Source: Gemmatimonadota bacterium
Lineage (GTDB): Bacteria; Gemmatimonadota; Gemmatimonadetes; Gemmatimonadales; Gemmatimonadaceae
Length of the DNA: 42,057 bases
Assembly (NCBI GenBank): GCA_028287285.1
Contig: JAQBPY010000055.1
Span: 1-42,057, forward strand
Reading direction: 5' to 3'
In this document: positions 19,130 through 29,621 of the stretch, piece after piece
How the letters are laid out: each line of letters starts with the position of its first letter
Position numbering within the stretch: position 1 is the first letter of the stretch
Made by a program: the position numbers and the translations under genes
Notes under the pieces: model-generated
Told to the model about the DNA's origin: nothing
What the model saw: only the letters and a program-made list of their open reading frames with translations
Databases searched by the model: none

Positions 19130-20137
19130 TCAGACCTGGTAGTACTCCCGATACCAGGTCGCGAACCGGCCAAGCCCCGTCGTGAGTGGCGTTCCCGGCC
19201 GGAAGCCCACGTCACGTTCTAGGTCGCTGACGTCGGCGAACGTCGCAAGCACGTCGCCTGGCTGCATTGGCAGCAGGCGCACGTTCGCAGTGCGCCCAAG
19301 GTGCCGCTCGAGGGTCGAGATCATCTCCAGCAGTTCTACCGGCTCGCTGTTTCCGATGTTGTACACGCGGTACGGCGCGAGGCTCGAGCGCGGGTCAGGG
19401 TTGGCGCTCGACCACTCGCGGTTTACCGCTGCCGGTCGGTCGGTGGTGCGCATCACCCCCTCCACAATGTCGTCAATGTAGGTGAAATCGCGACGCATCT
19501 GGCCATGGTTGTAGACGTCGATCGTTCTGCCGGCGAGGATGTCGCGGGTGAAGGAAAAGTACGCCATGTCCGGGCGGCCCCACGGTCCATAGACCGTGAA
19601 AAAGCGGAGTCCCGTCGTGGGCAGCCGGTAAAGATGACTGTACGTGTGGGCCATCAGCTCGTTCGCTTTCTTCGTCGCCGCGTAGAGACTCACCGGATGA
19701 TCCACCCCCTGCGCGACCGAGAAAGGCATCGTGCTGTTGGCACCATACACCGAGGACGATGACGCGTAGACGAGATGCTCGACCTCGCTATGCCGGCATC
19801 CCTCGAGGATGTTCATGAAGCCCACGAGGTTGCTGTCGACGTACGCATTGGGATTGGACAACGAATAGCGTACGCCGGCCTGGGCGCCGAGATGCACCAC
19901 GCGCGCGAACCGCTCCCGTGCGAACAGCGCTGCCATGCCATCACGGTCGGCAAAGTCGAGCCGCTTGAAACGAAAGCCCTCCCGCGGCGCGAGCCGGGCG
20001 AGGCGCGCCTCCTTCAGCGTCACGTCGTAGTACGAATTCAAGTTGTCGATTCCGACCACCTCGTCACCTCGCTGGAGCAGGCGCTCCGCGAGATGGTATC
20101 CGATGAAGCCCGCCGCGCCGGTGACGAGGATCTTCAT
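19130..20137 (-). CDS. NAD-dependent sugar-nucleotide epimerase (UDP-glucuronate 4-epimerase-like)
   Basis: An extended short-chain dehydrogenase/reductase of 335 residues. TGAAGFIG (6-13) is the NAD-binding motif, serines lie at 127-129, and YAATK (152-156) is the catalytic Tyr-x3-Lys. [16 protein letters not shown] and [16 protein letters not shown] are typical of the UDP-glucuronate 4-epimerase/CapI group, suggesting it supplies UDP-galacturonate or a related sugar. The exact substrate is inferred. The start at 20137 is fixed by the MKILVTG N-terminus and by an ATGA overlap with the stop of the upstream GT4 gene. It is convergent with the aminotransferase, with only 28 bases between, and it is not part of the duplicated module next door. 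Confidence 0.9.
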
Positions 20138-21399
20138 TGGAGTGCCGGTACTTCGGTCACCCACCGAGTGTCGGGCGCCGGGTCGGCGTGGCCGAGCGTC
20201 ATTTGCAGCAAGCGGTCGTTGATTGTGCGGATGTCATAATGCTTGCGTACCCAGTCGCGAGAGGCGTCACCGAGCTTCGCGAGATCGTCCGGGCTCACCT
20301 CAGCGAGCCTGCGAATCGCCATCGCAAGGGCGGCGGAATCCTCGGGCGGAATGGCGAACGGCCGCATCGCATCGGGGATCGATTCAGGTACGCCGCCAAC
20401 CATAGTGGTGATCACCGTGGTGCGGAGCAGCAGCGTCTCTTGGACGATACGGGCCTGGTTCTCTATAAAATTGCCGAACACGATGCTCGGCAGGATCAGC
20501 GCATCCGCGTTGGCCACCTCGCGAAACAGTTCGTTCGAAGACAGGGTCCCGAGAAAGCGGACGTGATCGGAGAGTGCATTGTCGCGGACAAACTGCTCGA
20601 GCGAACGGCGCAAGTGTCCTTCTCCGACAATGGTAAACGAAACGTCGCGCATGCCTTCGCGGATGACGTCGCGCACCGCTTCAAGGGCGAACTGCATCCC
20701 CTTTTCCTCACTCAGCCTCCCCGCAGAGATTAGGCGGAGCCTGCCGTTCGGTCGGAACGTGCGAGGCAGGCCCTGCGGAAACTTCTCGAAGTCGAAGCCA
20801 CCCGGGACGACACGAAGCTTCGCCGGCGCACACCCGCGCTCGACCAGGTGCTGCATCATGAACCGTGTATTGGTGAACACCACGTCGCATTCATCGAACA
20901 CCGTCTGCACTTCTGCCGGCGACAGCTCTCCCGTATAGCGCGGCACCTCGGGTCCGTGGTAGTACAACCCGATCGGGACGCCTGGGTAGAGTCTGTCGAG
21001 CCAGGTGAAGGCGATGGCGCTTGTGAGGTTGTGGATCAGCCAGAGGTCAGGAGCATGCTCTGGCAATACCAGCATCCGGGCCCACTCCGTAATGCGGCGA
21101 CGCGTGCTACCTTGCACGCGCCGGGCGAGGCCGGCCGCGCGCAGACAGAACGAGGGACGACGGACAAGGCTAGTGACAATCCGTCCAAGATACTTCGGGA
21201 CGTCTCGCACAGTATTTGGGTAGTTGATCGTTCGCTGGTCGAGCTTGAACCGCGCGATCGTCTCATTGTCGGCGGATCCCATCGAGCCACTTGAGTAGAT
21301 CGCGATGTCGTGGCCGTCTCGGACGAACTGCGCGAATTCTGTATCGAAACCCGGACGATAACTCGCTGGGTAGTATTGGCTGATGATCGCGATATTCAT
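20134..21399 (-). CDS. Glycosyltransferase family 4 (intact GT4 of duplicated module, copy 1)
   Basis: A GT-B fold retaining glycosyltransferase of 421 residues. [17 protein letters not shown] opens the first Rossmann half. [11 protein letters not shown] (198-207) sits at the domain link, [17 protein letters not shown] (220-236) begins the donor-binding half, and ENQARIVQE is the E-x7-E motif that binds the nucleotide sugar, ahead of MVGGVPESI. It overlaps the epimerase start by four bases and is followed upstream by GT2a after 48 bases, so all three are probably one minus-strand operon. A degraded second copy of this gene lies at 23344-23479. That remnant shares the first 16 residues and the 200-228 region. 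Confidence 0.92.
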
Positions 21400-21447
21400 G
21401 TCAGTTGTTACGGACTTGACGGTGGCGAGCGGTGCTGATACTGGCGA

Positions 21448-22533
21448 TCACGGGGACCCGCGCCTTGCTCGTCGATAAAGCGACCGAGCGATCCGTTCTA
21501 GGGATACCGGCACCGATGCGAGCGCAATGAGGCCCAGCGTGCGACCGTGCCGGGGCTGGTAATATACGGCTCGCGCTAGGGCGCGCCGTGCCGCACCACG
21601 GTTACCTGACTCGAGTTCGGCTTGACCCAGCCAGCGGTAACGGCCAGCAAGCACTCGGCGAAGAGATCGCGTGTCGAGGGGTATCCGGTCGCGATGCGCA
21701 TCGATGAGCGGCAACATCGTCCGGAGGCTGTTGCGCGCTTGGACGACCATCATATCAGGCCGGGTCAGCTGGTCCGCTCCCCCGATACGGTACAGTGCCA
21801 TGGGAATGTCGATGAACCCAACGAGCCCCTCGCGGCACATTCGCATGCACCAGTCGTAGTCTTCCCCCGCACGCATGCTCTCGTCGAAACCGCCTGCCGC
21901 ATCGAGCGCCGATCGGCGGACCATGACGGTGGGCATGTTTATGTAGCTACCGATAAACATCGGGCCGAAGAGGTCGCCGACGTGCGCCGTAGCGGTGCCA
22001 ATGCCCGATGGAAGCGGGAGCTCGAATCGGCGAGGAAATAGTTGATCCATCGGAGTCAACTTCCACGCTGGATATGCGACGCGAGTGTACCGCGGGTGTA
22101 GCATTTCAAGTTGTGCGTTCACTGCCGATACGTCGGTCCAGACGAGGCCGAGTTGTTCGTCCGCGAGCATGCAGGCCACTTCGAGCGCTATCTTGTCTCG
22201 GTCCCAGATGTCGTCCGAGTCACAAAAAGCGATGAACTCGCCAATTGCCATGGCGATTCCGGCGTTTCGCCCGGCCGAAAGGCCGGCATTTGGTTGCCAG
22301 GTGTATTGCACGCGCGGGTCGTGACCGAATTCGCGGGCCACGAGCGCATCAGTTCCGTCGGTTGAACCATCGTCGACGACCAAGACCTCGAGTTCGGCGT
22401 AGCTCTGCGCGAGTACGCTCGACAGTGTTTGCGCCAGACAGTAAGCGCGATTGTACGTGGGAAGCACGATGCTCACCAACCCGCATTTGGCTTGAGGCGC
22501 CGGAGACCTGTGAGTCACGTCGTCGACTGTCAT
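21448..22533 (-). CDS. Glycosyltransferase family 2, GT2a of duplicated module, copy 1
   Basis: A soluble GT-A enzyme of 361 residues. LVSIVLPTYNRAYCLAQTL and VVDDGSTDGTDALV bind the nucleotide, AFCDSDDIWDRDK contains the acidic metal site, and GGFDESMRAGEDYDWCMRM has the ED of the base. The C-terminal third, starting near QARNSLRTMLPL, is a helical tail also found in the second copy. The ATG at 22533 is chosen because it sits ten residues before the end of the variable leader and leaves room for the divergent GT2b remnant; the frame is open to 22623 through that remnant. By eye it is about 70 percent identical to the protein at 23522-24625. Both copies are intact, so both may be used. Confidence 0.9.
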   Translation of the reverse strand: MTVDDVTHRSPAPQAKCGLVSIVLPTYNRAYCLAQTLSSVLAQSYAELEVLVVDDGSTDGTDALVAREFGHDPRVQYTWQPNAGLSAGRNAGIAMAIGEFIAFCDSDDIWDRDKIALEVACMLADEQLGLVWTDVSAVNAQLEMLHPRYTRVAYPAWKLTPMDQLFPRRFELPLPSGIGTATAHVGDLFGPMFIGSYINMPTVMVRRSALDAAGGFDESMRAGEDYDWCMRMCREGLVGFIDIPMALYRIGGADQLTRPDMMVVQARNSLRTMLPLIDAHRDRIPLDTRSLRRVLAGRYRWLGQAELESGNRGAARRALARAVYYQPRHGRTLGLIALASVPVSLERIARSLYRRARRGSP

Positions 22534-22549
22534 TCCGTCAAGTAACCTC

Positions 22550-22554
22550 GGAGG
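22550..22554 (+). promoter_or_regulatory. Surviving ribosome-binding site of the GT2b pseudogene
   Basis: GGAGG stands five bases before a TTG at 22560 that begins the conserved LRALVSVVIPTHNR reading frame. It marks the original start of the dead gene, whose coding sequence no longer reads through. Confidence 0.5.
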
Positions 22555-22559
22555 AAACG

Positions 22560-23271
22560 TTGCGCGCTTTGGTCTCCGTCGTGATACCGACCCACAACAG
22601 GCTCCACTATTTGAGGCAAACACTCCAGTCGGTCATCGCACAAACCCACACGTTTTGGGAGATAACTTGTGATCGATGCCGGTTCGACGGATCCAATCGC
22701 TTCGGTGGTGGAATCCTTCGACGACGTGAGGACTCGGTATATGCCGCAGCCTCACTGAGGCGTATGTGCCGCGAGAAATTAGGCATCGAGAACGCTCAGG
22801 GGGAATTTACGAGCTTCTTGGATTCGCACGACATGTATACGCCTGAGTATATCGCGAAGAAGGTATCGTACGCCACGCAAAATCCCACGGCTGTACCGGT
22901 GGGGCGCGGGCTGTCGCTACGTGGACCGCGACAATGTCGAAATACTCCGTCCAACGTTTGCCCGCCCATCGGAAACTATGAGGAGCTGGCCATCTTTACG
23001 GCCTTCCAGGGGGACCAACAACATTTTCGCAAGGACGGCTTTACTCCGCAAGCTTGGCGGATTCACGAGAACTTGCGCGAGGTCGAGGATAGAGAAATGC
23101 TGCAGCGAATAGCACTTTCAAGGTCACATTGGATTCGTGCAAGAAACGCTAGTGAGTGTTCGTGTTCATGCGGAGGTACGCCCCGGAAGGGATGTGCGAT
23201 CCGTCGAAGGTAGCTATTCGCTGATTCGATCTCAATTGAAGTCGGACGTGCGAAGGAGGTCGGCCGCGTGA
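22560..23271 (+). pseudogene. Decayed glycosyltransferase family 2 (GT2b of copy 1)
   Basis: Segments of a GT2 closely matching the intact GT2b at 24629-25564 appear in order but in different frames. LVSVVIPTHNR and VIAQTHTFWE come first. After a shift near 22670 comes VIDAGSTDPIASVVESF, ended by a TGA. After another shift come FTSFLDSHDMYTPEY and SYATQNP, then GCRYVDRDNVEILRP, YEELAIFTAF, TNNIF, EVEDREMLQRIA, and finally VRVHAEVRPGRDVRSVEGSY to a TGA at 23269. The metal-site DSDD has become DSHD. About 75 C-terminal residues are missing compared with the intact copy. Several frameshifts plus a terminal deletion make it non-functional. Confidence 0.88.
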
Positions 23272-23343
23272 GACTTGTTCAACTTCGGACGTCGGTGCTC
23301 GAGGCGTCGTGAATATATGCGCGCCGTGGTATACTGGGGGCGC

Positions 23344-23479
23344 TCGTCCGGCTGAGATATGTCTGAGTTGTCCGTTCGGTCGGTAGGTCCTGGACTGCTC
23401 GCCTGTAAATCGGTCGAAATCGAAGCCGCCTTGGCCGATAACTGGCGGGGTAATGTTGGCTGATAATGCCGATTTTCAT
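23344..23479 (-). pseudogene. Remnant of glycosyltransferase family 4 (GT4 of copy 2)
   Basis: The minus strand from 23479 reads MKIGIISQHYPASYRP, nearly the same as the N-terminus of the intact GT4 at 21399. It then jumps, one frame over, to GGFDFDRF followed by RTYRPNGQLRHISAGR, which matches residues 200-228 of the intact protein. So roughly residues 17-200 are deleted internally and everything after about 228 is gone. The two ends of the internal deletion in the intact gene both encode a PG-FD stretch, so short homology may have guided the loss. What remains cannot fold as a GT-B enzyme. Confidence 0.82.
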
Positions 23480-23521
23480 TCGGTTCGCGGTCGGTCATCG
23501 TGATGGACTGCGGCTACAATG

Positions 23522-24625
23522 CTACCGCAGCCCCCGTTTGGCCCCGCGGTAGACCGACACCATCGTCTCGGCGAACGGTGCAGGAAGAAGCGCTAGGCAA
23601 AGTAGGCCCAGCGTACGGGCGTGGCTCGGTTGGTAATATATACTTTTGAGGAGCGCTCGCCACGATCGACCACGATGGCCCGCGTCGAGCTCCGCTTCGC
23701 CTAGCCATCGATATCGTCCGGCGAGTACCCGCCGGAGCATGCTCGGGGATAGGTCGATGCGATCTCTGTGCGCGGTAATGAGTGGTAGCATGGTCCGGAG
23801 GCTGTTCCGGGCCTGATCCACCATCAGTGCCGGCCGGGTGATCTGATCGGGCGCACCGATACGATAGTCGGCCATCGGGACGTCCACGAACGCCGCCGGC
23901 GCCTCCAGGCACATGCGTATGCACCAATCATAGTCCTCCCCCGCCCGCATGGTCTCGTCGAACCCGCCGGCGCGATCGAGGAGCAGACGTCGCACCATGA
24001 CAGTCGGCATGTTGATGTAGCTTCCGATAATCATCGGGCCAAAGAGGTCACCAACGTACGCGGTCACGTCAGTCCCGTCCGAATCAAGGTGCAGGGTGAT
24101 CGTCTTCTGGAAGAGCTGCTCCATGGGAGTCATCTGCCACGCAGGGTACGCCACTCGAGTGTAGCGCGGGTGCAACGTCTTGTAGTTGATGTCCACGGCT
24201 ACCACGTCCGTCCAAACAAGGCCGATCCGCTCGTCAGCTCGCATACAGGCAGCCTCAATGGCTATTTTTTCGCGGTGCCAAATGTCGTCGGAATCGCAGA
24301 AGGCGATGTATTCTCCGAGGGCGATAGCAATGCCCCTGTTGCGCGCGGCGGAGAGCCCCGCATTCTGGAACCACGCATATCGAATACGCGGATCGTGTCC
24401 AAATTCCCGCTCGATCAGTTCCCCTGTCCCGTCCGTAGACCCATCGTCGATGATCAACACTTCCATCTGACGATAGCTTTGCTCCAGCACGCTCGAGAGC
24501 GTTTGCCCGAGACAATAGGCACGATTATAGGTGGGTAGAACGATGCTCACCAAGCCAAACGTCACCTGAGGCGTTTCCGATCCAGGGGACTGGTCTGAAC
24601 CCGATTCTAGGCGAGGAGAGTTCAT
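23522..24625 (-). CDS. Glycosyltransferase family 2, GT2a of duplicated module, copy 2
   Basis: A 367-residue GT-A enzyme, paralogue of 21448-22533. LVSIVLPTYNRAYCLGQTL, LIIDDGSTDGTGELI, AFCDSDDIWHREK and GGFDETMRAGEDYDWCIRM carry the nucleotide, metal and base motifs. The segment DLFGPMIIGSYINMPTVMVRR is almost unchanged between copies. The main differences fall around residues 150-180 (QKTITLHLDSDGTD here), which could alter acceptor choice. The start at 24625 lies three bases from the divergent GT2b ATG, so promoter and ribosome-binding elements for each gene must lie within the other. No clear ribosome-binding site precedes this start, and a GTG about 21 codons in is an alternative. The GT4 remnant lies downstream. 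Confidence 0.9.
   Translation of the reverse strand: MNSPRLESGSDQSPGSETPQVTFGLVSIVLPTYNRAYCLGQTLSSVLEQSYRQMEVLIIDDGSTDGTGELIEREFGHDPRIRYAWFQNAGLSAARNRGIAIALGEYIAFCDSDDIWHREKIAIEAACMRADERIGLVWTDVVAVDINYKTLHPRYTRVAYPAWQMTPMEQLFQKTITLHLDSDGTDVTAYVGDLFGPMIIGSYINMPTVMVRRLLLDRAGGFDETMRAGEDYDWCIRMCLEAPAAFVDVPMADYRIGAPDQITRPALMVDQARNSLRTMLPLITAHRDRIDLSPSMLRRVLAGRYRWLGEAELDAGHRGRSWRALLKSIYYQPSHARTLGLLCLALLPAPFAETMVSVYRGAKRGLR
24614..24618 (+). promoter_or_regulatory. Ribosome-binding site of intact GT2b, inside GT2a
   Basis: AGGAG, part of GCGAGGAGAG, stands seven bases before a GTG at 24626 and ten before the ATG at 24629. It lies within the first codons of the divergent GT2a gene. Either start is possible; the proteins differ by one residue. 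Confidence 0.55.
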
Positions 24626-24628
24626 GTG

Positions 24629-25564
24629 ATGTTCACGGTTGATGAGTTGGTTTCAATTGTCATACCGACATACAACCGGAGCGCGCTCCTGCGACAAGCG
24701 ATCGAATCCGTCATGGCGCAAACCCACACAGCGTGGGAAGTCCTGGTGATCGACGATGGGTCGACCGAGCCCATTCAGCAGGTCGTGGAATCATTCCAAG
24801 ACATGCGGATGCGCTACCTCAGGCAACCGCAACAAGGCGTGTCCGTGGCGCGGAACTACGGGATCCAAGAGTCAAAAGGGAAGTTCATAAGCTTCCTCGA
24901 CTCGGATGACATGTACGAGCCCCATTGCCTCGAGGCAAAGATAGTTTATGCGGCAACGCATCCTGACGCGATTGTCATAGGAGCAGGTTGCCGATATATC
25001 AATACGGACAATCAAGAAATCCTTCACCGAACGCCTCCGCGTACCAATGCGACGTACGACGATCTCGCAATCTTCACCGCCTTTCCGGGTGGCACAAACA
25101 ACATTTTTGTCCGAAGCGATGCGTTAGGAGCAACCGGAGGCTTCACTACGCATCTCGTGGAGGCCGAAGATCGCGAGCTCCTTCAGCGACTATCGCGACG
25201 GGGGAGAATAGGATTTGTTCACGATACACTGGTGTGCGTTCGCGTCCATACCGAAGTGCGAAAGGGAAGAGACCTAGAGTCCGTCCGCCCCAGTTATGCC
25301 TGGATAAGGGCACAAATGTCGGATAAGCAATTGAGAGTGCGCTCAGAGGCGTGGGAGTACGTCTCGTTCGGGAGGCGCTACTGGGCGAGAAAGTCGTACG
25401 TGACCGGAGTGTACAACTTCGCCTGTTCTTTCACAAAGTACGTGCCGCAGATCCATCCAGAGTTGTCGCGTCTCCGCACCATCGCCGAAGGTGTCATTCC
25501 GGAGCGACTATACTCTCATTTATCTCGTATATTCCGATCATTCCGGCGTGCGAGGATAGGGTAG
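24629..25564 (+). CDS. Glycosyltransferase family 2, GT2b of duplicated module, copy 2
   Basis: An intact 311-residue GT-A enzyme. LVSIVIPTYNRSALLRQAI, VIDDGSTEPIQQVV, SFLDSDDMYEPHCL and a later VEAEDRELLQRLSR give the nucleotide-binding strand, metal site and base. The C-terminal ~80 residues (from about YAWIRAQM) are helical and basic; this part is missing from the pseudogene copy at 22560-23271. It starts three bases from the divergent GT2a and is followed after 43 bases by the frameshifted acyltransferase on the same strand. GT2b is not close in sequence to GT2a beyond the shared fold, so the two probably add different sugars. Confidence 0.9.
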   Translation: MFTVDELVSIVIPTYNRSALLRQAIESVMAQTHTAWEVLVIDDGSTEPIQQVVESFQDMRMRYLRQPQQGVSVARNYGIQESKGKFISFLDSDDMYEPHCLEAKIVYAATHPDAIVIGAGCRYINTDNQEILHRTPPRTNATYDDLAIFTAFPGGTNNIFVRSDALGATGGFTTHLVEAEDRELLQRLSRRGRIGFVHDTLVCVRVHTEVRKGRDLESVRPSYAWIRAQMSDKQLRVRSEAWEYVSFGRRYWARKSYVTGVYNFACSFTKYVPQIHPELSRLRTIAEGVIPERLYSHLSRIFRSFRRARIG

Positions 25565-25607
25565 CAGGATTGTAGAGCGTTTGACCTCCATGAAGGAATG
25601 ATCCGAA

Positions 25608-26954
25608 ATGCAAAGGAGTGTACAACCATTTGGCGCATTTAAACTTGGAAATGCCCGACTCTCGCAACAGCTGTCGCGCGCCTCAACTCCGGAAGCGTCG
25701 ACGCCGAGTCCACAGATAGGATTACGCGCGCAAGCCTCGTATCGCAGGTCTCGTCGAATGTTTTCCATGGACATCGTACGCGGAGTGGCTGTCGCGCTCG
25801 TCCTGTTGAACCACATGCCGATGGGGACGCTCCCTCCGGCCACGTGGTTTGAGTCATTCGTGAGAACGTTACAAGATGCTGGTTGGGTAGGCGTGGATCT
25901 GTTCTTCGTCCTGTCGGGCTACCTGATCTCACGCATTCTTTTCCAGGAAATTGATCGAACCGGCACCATAGCGTTGGGGCGATTCTGGCTGCGGCGTGGA
26001 TTCAAGATCTGGCCTTCGTATTTTTGTGGCATACGGAGCCATGATGCTGCTCTGGGTCGCATCGAGCCGGCTATTTGGTCTCGGCGATGGACAGGATCAG
26101 CAATTGATTCGCACCATCCTTCCCAACCTCATCTTCGTACAGAACTATTTTCCAGCCGATTGGCGATGGCCGCATAGTTGGTCGATCGCGATCGAGGAAC
26201 ACTTCTATCTCATCCTGCCGGTCCTCTTGGTGGCCTCGATCCGTCGGTGGCACGGAGTTAAGAGAGATCATCCTTCTCATCTTCTGGGTATTGGGTGGCT
26301 TGTCTTCCTCGCCATACTACTGGCCCGCTTGGTGACCATCTTTGTCTGGCCCGCGCCTCCCGGCATCCACGCATGGGAGGCGACGTACTACCCCACGCAT
26401 GTGCGCGCGGACGGTTTGGTGCTCGGTGTCATGTTGGGATACGCATCGAATCGCACCTTCCCCGGCGTGGCGCGTCTGGGCCGGCACGCACGCGCCGCGA
26501 TCACTCTCGCGCTGTGTGCCATGGACTGGTTGTGCTGTTTCCGCGCAACACGTCACCCTTCACCTACACCCTTGGCTTTTCTCTCCTCGCGCTTGCCTTT
26601 GGTGGGGTTGTCCTCGCGGCCCATGAGCATCCGGACTTTGGTTCGGTCGGCTCACGCTGGAAGGTAGCCCTACCAAGGATCTTCGCCTTCCTCGGCGTCT
26701 ACTCCTACACGATCTACCTCGCGCACTCGGTCATTCCCAATTCTCCGGGCTATCTTTTGGCTCTTCGCATGGTGCATCACCTCGCGGGTAACTCCATCTG
26801 GGTGGAACGCGCATTTTTTCTCCTTGCTTCGATCGTCGGTGGTGTGCTGCTCTCACACATCGTCGAGCGCCCCGCTTTGCAGTGGAGGTCGAGGCTGTTT
26901 CCATCGCCGATGAGTTCTGCCGGAGACACGGCAGCCGGTCGCGCACTAGCATAG
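25608..26954 (+). pseudogene. Acyltransferase family 3, broken by two one-base shifts
   Basis: One complete acyltransferase is readable across two frames. AAGGA ten bases before the ATG at 25608 supports that start. The first part has MDIVRGVAVALVLLNH and FFVLSGYLISRIL and ends at KIWPSYF. Removing one T from the five-T run at 26021-26025 restores the next part (VAYGAMMLLWV, then SWSIAIEEHFYLILP) up to ALCAM. One G missing near 26521-26526 would give the final part (GLVVLFPRNTSP, then YSYTIYLAHSVIP and a terminal helix to 26954). The second shift undoes the first. No other defect is seen. Either the gene is recently broken or both shifts are homopolymer sequencing errors; the motifs are otherwise intact. 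Confidence 0.82.
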
Positions 26955-27060
26955 CGAGGCGGCATCTTTCGGGAAACGCCCGGCCGGGCCATTCGTTCGC
27001 GCGTCGCATCGGCTACGGACGCCATCTGACGGAAGCACGAACAGCGCCTGCGCGGTTGCA

Positions 27061-29108
27061 TCATTGGGACCCTCGACCAGCAAGCGCGCGACCCACGAGG
27101 GACGACCGTGGCACCCGCGCCAGTTCGACCGATAGCACGGGTGCGAGAGACTCCGAAAACTGCTTGCTGATGTGGTGCTCGTCTTCATAGCGCACGAGTC
27201 CGTCGGCCATTGCGGGGCACGCTCCACCCGGACAGATGTGGTCGTTCAGGGTCAGGTATGTGGCGCGATCGAGGTGATCGAGAGCGTTGCGTTCTCTCGC
27301 CGCAAAAGACTCATCAACTGCACTGCGTTTGGGAAACGAACACTCACCCACATTACGAAAATGACGCACGAGACATTCTGGAACATCGAACCCTGGTCGG
27401 GGCGTGTCCTGGAATACCACCATGTGTGCGGCACTGGCGTGCGAGCTCCCTGACTGAGCTTCCAAGTCCCTCGGTCCACATGAGGACCCCCTCCGGTTTC
27501 GTCATCGAGATCTGTTGCGACCCGGAGACCAGCGTATATAACCCCGCGTTCGAAACCACCACGATGGTTGCGTGTAGCGAATCTATCCGGGCAAATGCAC
27601 GTCGACGCCATCGGTCACATTCCACGTATGCGCGCCCCAGCGATGGATTGAGGACAGATACCATTGCGGAGGGACAGGCGGACTTGGTAAGTGACACGAG
27701 GCGCCAGCGTCTGCGCGCCGCGACTTGTTCGAGTGCCGGAAACCACTGTGCCGCGTGCGAGTCGCCGAACAGCACCAGCGTGGTGTCACTTGCAACCGCC
27801 CCATAGACGCAAGCGGGTGAAGTATCGCCCGTCAGACTCACATGACATCCATCGGCATATGTCCGTGGCAGATCTGAACGGCCACGAAGGGAGCAAATTC
27901 GGGCCGTCCAAGCCGTGCGCTGGCATACGCTGCAGCTAGGTTGGCAAGTCCCACCGACAGTGCCGCGATAATGACCGCGCCAATGACCGTGGCCACGCTG
28001 CGGCGTTGAAGCAGCTTGGAAACCTGACCGGCTTTTCGACTAGGTAGTACGTCGCGGCGGCAGGAATGAGCGCGGCGATCACCACAATGAGGGACGCTGT
28101 GGGCGACGGATGTGGTACCGTCTCCGCAAAGAACACGAGGAATGGCCAGTGCCACAGGTACCAGCTGTACGAAAGGCGTCCGATGAATCGAAGAGGCTCG
28201 CTACTCAATAGGCCGCCGATGACAGTGACTCCGCGCGCGCCCGAAATCATGATTCCTGCAGTGGCCAGGGTGGGCAGGAGGGTGATCCAGCCAGGGTGTG
28301 ACACGCGTTCCGTCGTAAGCAAGCCGGAAGCAACAAGCACGATGAACGACAGCGCTGAAATCCATTGGGCGTGGCGGATGGGTCGCGACGGAAGCCTCCT
28401 GACGACGATGACCGCCAACGCTCCGATCCCGAATTCCCAGGCGCGCGCTGGAAGCACATAGAACGCAATCACTGGGTACATGCGTCGCAGAAACAGACAA
28501 CCAGCGAATGAGGCCAGCGAGAGCACGACGCCGGCGTTGCGGAAGAAGCTGTTGAATCGCGACATGCCGCGCACGCGCATCGCGATCAGCGCAACAAGTG
28601 GCGCGTAGATGAGGTAAAATTGCTCTTCGACGGAAAGTGACCAGGTATGGAGTAGCGGATCGCGCACCACGTCGCTCGCGAAGGAATCAGTACACCGAAT
28701 CGCAAAGAGAATATTGGAGCCGTAGAGTCCGAAGCTGCGAGCCGTGTGCGCATGCCGAAGCTCCTCGAATGGCGTGAAGAACGCGGCATCTGCCGTAAGG
28801 ACGACTATCATGATGACCGTCCCCGCCGGGAGCAGTCATCTTGCACGACGAGCCCAGAAACCAACGAGCGATAACCTCCCCGTTTTTTCTACTTCATCAA
28901 TCAGCACTCCGGAAATGAGAAAACCTGAAAGCACAAAAAACACGTCGACGCCGAGATAGCCGCCCGGTACCGCAGTGATGTGAGCGTGATACAGAACAAC
29001 AAGAACGATGGCTATTGCCCTCAACCCTTCAATGTCAGGGCGAAAAGCCTAGGAATGGCGTGCCTCGGGTACAGCCCGTGTCGCCTCGGTAGAAAAGGAA
29101 GTAGTCAT
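27061..29108 (-). pseudogene. Acyltransferase-3/SGNH fusion protein, heavily mutated
   Basis: A gene for an OafA-type protein with a C-terminal periplasmic SGNH domain, beginning at the ATG at 29108 (MTTSFSTEATRAV). A TAG at 29049-29051 interrupts it just before FRPDIEGLRAIAIVLVVLYH. A TGA at 28836-28838 stands where CGA would encode arginine, in RRAR-stop-LLPAG. The membrane part continues in frame with WSLSVEEQFYLIYAP to YYLVEKPV. Frames then change near 28025, 27885 and 27440. The SGNH part shows TLVLFGDSHAAQW with the serine block, NDHICPGGACP, and YEDEHHISKQF with a D-x-x-H-like pair near the end. Two nonsense codons and three shifts rule out sequencing error as the full explanation. Confidence 0.87.
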
Positions 29109-29621
29109 CGTCACGTAATTCCGGACGGAGGCAGGACGAAGGGAAGTCGGCGGAAAATACGCGTCGCGATGAGAATCACTCGGCCCCTTTCTGGATAAGG
29201 GTATGCTCGCTTTCGCTCGTGCTCCAGCCAACGGGGCCTCCCGGACCGCGAATGCGGGTGCAGTTGTCGACGAGCAGAACGGCTAGACGCCGCCGAACGA
29301 TGCGAGTTGGTCCTGTTGGAGGTCTCGCGAAGGCGCGCGCGGCGATGGACTCCTCGACGACGGCGAGACGAATCCCCCCCTGGATTGCACGCGAGCCGCA
29401 CTAAATGGGCACGCGGTGCGCCTACCTCAAAACGACTTGGCCCCATAGGTTGCAGCGTGCCTGACTGGGACGTCCTGATATCGCAACCGCACGGTGGTGC
29501 ATGCACGCACCCGACGAGCGCCGCGCACGATGCCCGGCCCACCGAGAAACCATCGAACACGCCACAAATATGAAGGAAAAGCGACGGTCGAAAGGGAGGT
29601 CTCGACGAGGACTCAACAGTG
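29109..29621. other. Gene-free stretch between pseudogene and ABC exporter
   Basis: No recognisable gene. One minus-strand frame stays open through 29111-29734, but its product is rich in arginine and serine, overlaps the ABC transporter end in another frame and resembles no family I know. Another minus-strand frame, around 29190-29400 (containing RRRLAVLLVDNC), is also open without a clear start. These may be scraps of a lost gene or chance open frames in GC-rich DNA. It probably includes the old promoter of the acyltransferase-SGNH pseudogene. Confidence 0.4.

Follow-up and report, generated by a model that had tools for sequence, protein, structure and literature searches.

Reciprocal gene loss after duplication is usually taken to reflect independent losses from redundant duplicates, and the glycosyltransferase locus described here resembles it in that each of two copies lacks what the other keeps. 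It differs in that the two lost genes adjoin at one seam and appear to have been lost late. The O-antigen clusters of Salmonella offer a second comparison, as outlined in PMC3715488, with a hybrid cluster in group D2 and wzy remnants in groups B1/D1. The likeness, as far as that outline goes, lies in the rebuilding of a polysaccharide locus through recombination of related clusters, in a remnant where they join, and in the serial deletion of a displaced gene. The parent clusters of D2, in the same outline, are known and nearly identical to the parts of the hybrid, whereas our searches turned up no parent for the present locus, whose copies are 64% alike in DNA and whose two sets stand in tandem. 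Remnant sequence at the junction, a hallmark of D2, is present here; as for its other hallmark, two identifiable parent clusters, no close relative of either copy was found in the collections searched. We found no described case of exactly such an arrangement in the literature at the level of titles and the beginnings of abstracts. Our preferred reading, to which we give a probability of roughly 0.7, is that two old, working modules stood head to tail and that their facing inner genes were lost recently, most simply through one event at the seam.

Two colinear modules and the seam between them

The window, one whole contig of 42,057 nucleotides from a Gemmatimonadota draft genome (6.1 Mb, 441 contigs, 84% complete), carries a surface or exopolysaccharide locus with glycosyltransferases, acyltransferases, an O-antigen-ligase-like membrane protein, polysaccharide deacetylases, an asparagine-synthase-like amidotransferase and an exporter-type ABC protein. 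Within it, two related three-gene sets lie head to tail, and both genes adjoining the seam are broken. Copy 1 opens with an intact GT4-type gene, GT4-1 (20134-21399, minus strand), which has the GT4-type Pfam domains Glyco_trans_1_4 (1.8e-22) and Glycos_transf_1 (3e-21). It continues with an intact GT2 gene, GT2a1 (21448-22530, minus strand; Glycos_transf_2 at 2e-29), whose open reading frame extends to a GTG at 22623 and whose start we infer to be the ATG at 22530, and ends with the remnant GT2b-1 (22557-23328, plus strand). Copy 2 begins with two minus-strand pieces of GT4-2, a middle piece at 23348-23438 that matches 20720-20810 and a 5′ end with the start codon at 23433-23479 that matches 21353-21399. 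These are followed by two intact GT2 genes, GT2a2 (23522-24625, minus strand; Glycos_transf_2 at 8.9e-31) and GT2b-2, hereafter GT2b (24626-25564, plus strand; 2.2e-34). Against a curated cut-off of 23.3 bits, Glycos_transf_2 scores 103.1 bits in GT2a1, 107.5 in GT2a2 and 119.3 in GT2b. The start codons of GT2a2 and GT2b stand back to back with 0 bases between them (24620-24630), so each promoter would have to sit within the opposite gene, and that of GT2a1 would in the same way fall within the GT2b remnant, which might favour persistence of that remnant.

Self-comparison of the DNA aligned 21530-23205 with 23604-25285 at 63.8% identity over 1686 columns, in a single, colinear alignment that runs without rearrangement through GT2a and GT2b. 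GT2a1 and GT2a2 share 67% amino acid identity over 360 codons, and in a tree of 54 rows both GT2a1 with GT2a2 and GT2b with the GT2b remnant formed sister pairs supported at 100/100. The start-to-start spacing of the copies was 2074-2080 in four repeat families, and the two GT2a copies are alike in GC content (0.617 and 0.599). A sequence-only reading had described GT4 (minus), GT2a (minus) and GT2b (plus) as occurring twice in tandem, with GT2b lost from copy 1, GT4 lost from copy 2 and GT2a kept in both. Order, strand, homology and the complementary losses are all borne out by these comparisons, and neither pair proved closer to outside genes than to its partner. The copy limits given in that reading, 23271 and 23344, were close, and the limits of the remnants are now added to them; the observation of two colinear homologous modules with broken inner genes is confirmed as a whole. 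Repeats over 19900-29200 comprised nine direct families and five inverted pairs, none of them paired at the two ends of the module.

Protein-guided alignment follows GT2b-1 from 22557 to 23328 along codons 4-262 of the 312 in GT2b, at 57% amino acid identity over 249 codons, with seven frameshifts, one lost codon and two in-frame stops; the plain DNA alignment stops at 23299. The last 50 codons of GT2b were not found in the remnant, nor did the 19-48 bp that separate the two remnants match the end of GT2b any better than shuffled sequence did. Across the seam, the 5′ piece of GT4-2 (23433-23479) is 81% identical to the 5′ end of GT4 and the middle piece (23348-23438) 64% identical to mid-GT4. 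The score of each piece was reached by none of 300 dinucleotide shuffles, and both have the strand and place expected of them. Approximately 540 bp between the two pieces are absent and everything 3′ of codon 227 is missing, so that the damage consists of the loss of an inner block together with the loss of the 3′ end; a comparison of 23230-23347 with GT4 gave no match above shuffles. The seam proper (23329-23347) matches neither gene. Two common 6-mers, ACCCGG and GGACGA, occur at the ends of the GT4-2 inner deletion, but microhomology was rejected as an explanation because windows of the same size share a 6-mer by chance about 30% of the time (0.298, a slight underestimate since skipped pairs were kept in the denominator).

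GT2b-1 and GT4-2 are thus adjacent convergent genes, separated by an unmatched gap of 19-48 bp, and each lacks the 3′ end that faces the seam. For this reason a single junction event could have begun the apparent reciprocity, and by parsimony the arrangement is most simply read as one event at the seam, a reading that falls short of proof. The inner loss in GT4-2 and the frameshifts in GT2b-1 show that more than one mutation occurred. What may not carry over from the earlier description is reciprocal loss in the sense of two independent losses, given that the two inner genes are neighbours, converge and are both missing the ends that face each other.

The stretch from 22.5 to 29 kb is one of decay, holding the two remnants and two broken acyltransferase genes, with GT2a2 and GT2b intact within it. 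An acyltransferase-3 gene adjoining copy 2 (25608-26954, plus strand) is split into three overlapping pieces in two alternating reading frames, which cover profile positions 3-86, 77-233 and 239-325. A second acyltransferase with an SGNH domain (27353-29024, minus strand) is apparently broken as well, with at least one stop and one frame change; its pieces lie at 28836-29024, 27936-28811 and 27353-27841, the Pfam analysis having covered the last two.

Timing of the decay

Mismatches between the GT2b remnant and GT2b in the DNA alignment numbered 72/242, 51/238 and 145/237 at first, second and third codon positions (0.30/0.21/0.61), and the difference between third and other positions was highly significant (p = 4e-20). 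The protein-guided alignment gave 0.365/0.233/0.655 over 249 codons, and the corresponding values for the working GT2a pair were 0.22/0.20/0.61. For the GT4 pieces the counts were 8/43, 9/44 and 23/42 (p = 9e-5), in a test that covers two short pieces with 129 sites, picked because they are still alignable. From this third-position bias it follows that the inner genes were working long after the modules separated and were lost late; long past constraint is shown for GT2b-1 and, on the short pieces, for GT4-2.

We also fitted a codon model in which part of the remnant branch evolves neutrally, using the codons of the protein-guided alignment and leaving time and omega to vary freely over a grid. 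A neutral share of 0 to 5% gave the highest log-likelihood (-1754.4 and -1754.9); a share of 10% cost 3.5 units and complete neutrality of the branch about 53, or about 148 when the GT2a time scale was applied. The time scale of this model is poorly fixed, as the free fit reaches the edge of the grid at t = 30, and fixing a short time instead (t = 5 to 8) raised the best-fitting neutral share to approximately 0.05-0.3 while lowering the likelihood.

The GT2a pair has reached saturation at silent sites, with 98 of 137 four-fold sites differing (0.715 versus 0.718 expected at saturation); in the GT2b pair, 47 of 69 differ (0.681 versus 0.719 expected). The GT2b pair is somewhat worse off than the GT2a pair, both in first-position mismatch and in amino acid identity (57% versus 67%). 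When unique changes were counted against eight outgroup rows, the remnant had more than its partner in six, an equal number in one and fewer in one, and the excess reached p under 0.05 in two of the eight (11:27 and 7:19). This unevenness makes some acceleration in the GT2b remnant likely and leaves the age of the decay loosely constrained. On these comparisons of codons, the modules seem old and the decay young. Most Salmonella pseudogenes are reported to be young and quickly removed (Kuo and Ochman 2010, PMC2916853), and a recent loss of the inner genes fits that report as far as it goes.

The course of events under our preferred reading would be as follows. Two homologous GT4-GT2a-GT2b modules would have separated long ago, each evolving as a working gene set. 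Recently, one deletion or joining across the seam would have truncated GT2b-1 and GT4-2 at their adjoining 3′ ends, and further deletions and frameshifts would have gathered later in both inner genes, leaving one full set plus a second GT2a. The complementary pattern of loss would then arise from the geometry of the seam, across which the two inner genes face each other.

Relatives and the origin of the pair

Relatives were sought in overlapping sets of 179, 288 and 395 genomes, with genome searches that score only the best first-look candidates (about 4 to 11 per genome in the broad searches). The best identities outside the genome itself were 41% for GT2a, 41% for GT4 and 42%, over a part, for GT2b. 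A single-module ancestor was not found in the collections searched, and none of the 12 fetched loci in which gene order was compared had the module. Pattern search of species genomes, a single-protein search that finds close relatives only, returned 20 loci with best-segment identities of 27-46%; viral contigs gave four loci at 23-45% identity, and plasmids gave no match at E up to 1e-30. The next GT2a relatives in the tree are single genes from three family members at about 40% identity, and a fourth family member, outside the 54-row tree, has a GT2a match of 39%. Nearest in content among the 12 loci is L063, in which two GT2 genes stand close to a homologue of GT4-1 (37.5%), though the gene order differs. 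In L063 and two further loci from distant genomes (L061 and L062), an ATP-grasp/GT4 framework surrounds the GT4-1 homologue, with the ATP-grasp protein 45-50% identical; L063 also has an MBOAT protein at 66% and L061 a Wzy-like protein at 43%. We regard these three as one type of locus, whose frame is stable while its transferases vary. A locus of another family member (L065, 9589-11382) contains two adjacent GT2b-like genes that are 33% and 36% identical to GT2b, possibly a separate duplication.

The arrangement had been called direct evidence of duplication in the sequence-only reading, and this was too strong, because silent divergence is saturated, neither a single-module ancestor nor a close relative was found in the collections searched, and recombination or transfer may have brought the two sets together. 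Two routes lead to the preferred reading of old modules with late inner loss. On the first, which we put a little short of even odds, the modules came to differ while in separate lineages, transfer or offset recombination later united them, and the facing 3′ ends were lost in the act of joining. A search for GT2a with E up to 1e-60 found no match in any of nine congeners (76-97% complete), and pS for the GT2a pair (0.77) exceeds that of gyrB between this genome and eight congeners (0.46-0.53; the ninth was excluded, its gyrB match being a fragment), although silent sites of gyrB may be slower than those of glycosyltransferase genes. Since the GT2a pair would be older than the genus on this yardstick, a pair kept in place for such a time might be expected in some congener. 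The compact seam is consistent with such a join, as is the result that no gene conversion between the GT2a copies was detected (lowest 30-codon window p = 0.28), and a hybrid O-antigen cluster whose junction carries a remnant element has been published for Salmonella group D2, as outlined in PMC3715488. Weighing against a join are the similar GC content of the two GT2a copies, the head-to-tail order, which is the exact product of a simple tandem duplication, and the searches of the collections, in which neither a donor nor a single-module relative was found. The gyrB match of the genome under study contains one in-frame TAG, perhaps a base error of the draft.

The second route, plausible but distinctly below even odds, starts from an old tandem duplication, either at this site or in some unsampled donor that supplied the cluster as a whole; both copies then worked for a long time before the inner genes were lost late. 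It accounts for the equal order, strand and spacing of the copies, for the GT2a and GT2b/remnant sister pairs and for the long constraint on the lost genes. On the other hand, it needs both copies to have been retained beyond the gyrB-based time for the genus, nine congeners are without a close GT2a, and homogenisation of the tandem pair was not detected. Between the two routes, we slightly favour a join of two diverged modules over duplication in place. The more specific proposal, that diverged modules were stacked by one offset recombination which trimmed both at the seam and left the cell with one complete set plus a second, diverged GT2a, is tentative, and we would sooner bet against it than for it.

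One tandem duplication whose breakpoints fell within both GT4 and GT2b, leaving inner partial genes that never worked, would explain the geometry in one step, as both inner genes lack their seam-facing ends. We consider it very improbable, however, since it predicts near-flat mismatch of approximately 0.69/0.70/0.71 on the GT2a time scale, against the observed 0.30/0.21/0.61 or 0.37/0.23/0.66, and carries the penalty of about 53 log-likelihood units even with time and omega free. The codon pattern already contradicts it, unless a GT2b protein minus its last 50 residues kept working. Least credible of all is an assembly or sequencing artefact of the fragmented draft, which the TAG in gyrB (base errors may exist) and the two broken acyltransferase genes downstream (as a poorly covered stretch could show) might suggest, but the longest exact same-strand word common to the copies is 14 nt, which makes a k-mer-bridged join unlikely, GT2a2 and GT2b, flanked by the remnants on one side and the broken acyltransferases on the other, have uninterrupted reading frames from end to end, and an inner loss of approximately 540 bp is not a base-calling error.

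The surviving transferases and what the locus may mean

Judged by their protein families, the four survivors are predicted to be ordinary GT2 or GT4 enzymes, and in view of the surrounding cluster each would add one sugar to the repeat unit of one polymer. No NCBIfam model among the matches listed reaches its cut-off for GT2a1 (25 of 26), GT2a2 or GT2b. A DXD-type motif binds metal and nucleotide, and the residues D111, S112, D113 and D114 are invariant in 14 aligned proteins, including GT2a1, GT2a2 and GT2b. The GT2a2 model (pLDDT 85) has a predicted GT-A-like fold with this DSDD motif, the fold having been checked for GT2a2 only. Its nearest solved folds are bacterial glycosyltransferases, among them transferases for polysaccharides and teichoic acids, namely 5hea, 2z86 (the chondroitin polymerase of E. 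coli K4), SpsA, TarP and TarS. GT2a2 would be like these GT2 enzymes in family, fold and motif, but differs in sequence, with 14-23% identity among the 50 matches listed, and these do not point to a substrate.

It had further been proposed that the extra GT2a may have a new acceptor or sugar, and our comparisons do not bear this out. Both GT2a copies keep the invariant residues, and the dN/dS estimate for the pair gave an omega of about 0.05, indicating strong constraint. Unique changes were even between GT2a1 and GT2a2 (23:28, 21:22 and 21:23 with three outgroups), and faster evolution of one copy was not detected. The sole hint is a more variable hairpin, in which 14 of 28 residues differ (p = 0.03, with no correction for how the segment was chosen); variation is just as high in the last 61 residues, where 30 differ, and a change of specificity read from the hairpin was set aside as weak.

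Overall, the locus shows gene-cluster remodelling clearly, though in a fairly ordinary form. Losses that complement each other are readily taken for duplication followed by reciprocal loss, and the geometry of a seam can imitate reciprocity, while the divergence of a remnant by codon position can separate late loss from fragments that were dead on arrival. For polysaccharide loci, the pair is an example of how an extra transferase may arise. If diverged modules were indeed stacked, a transferase would have been gained in one step, without two identical copies ever having been present.
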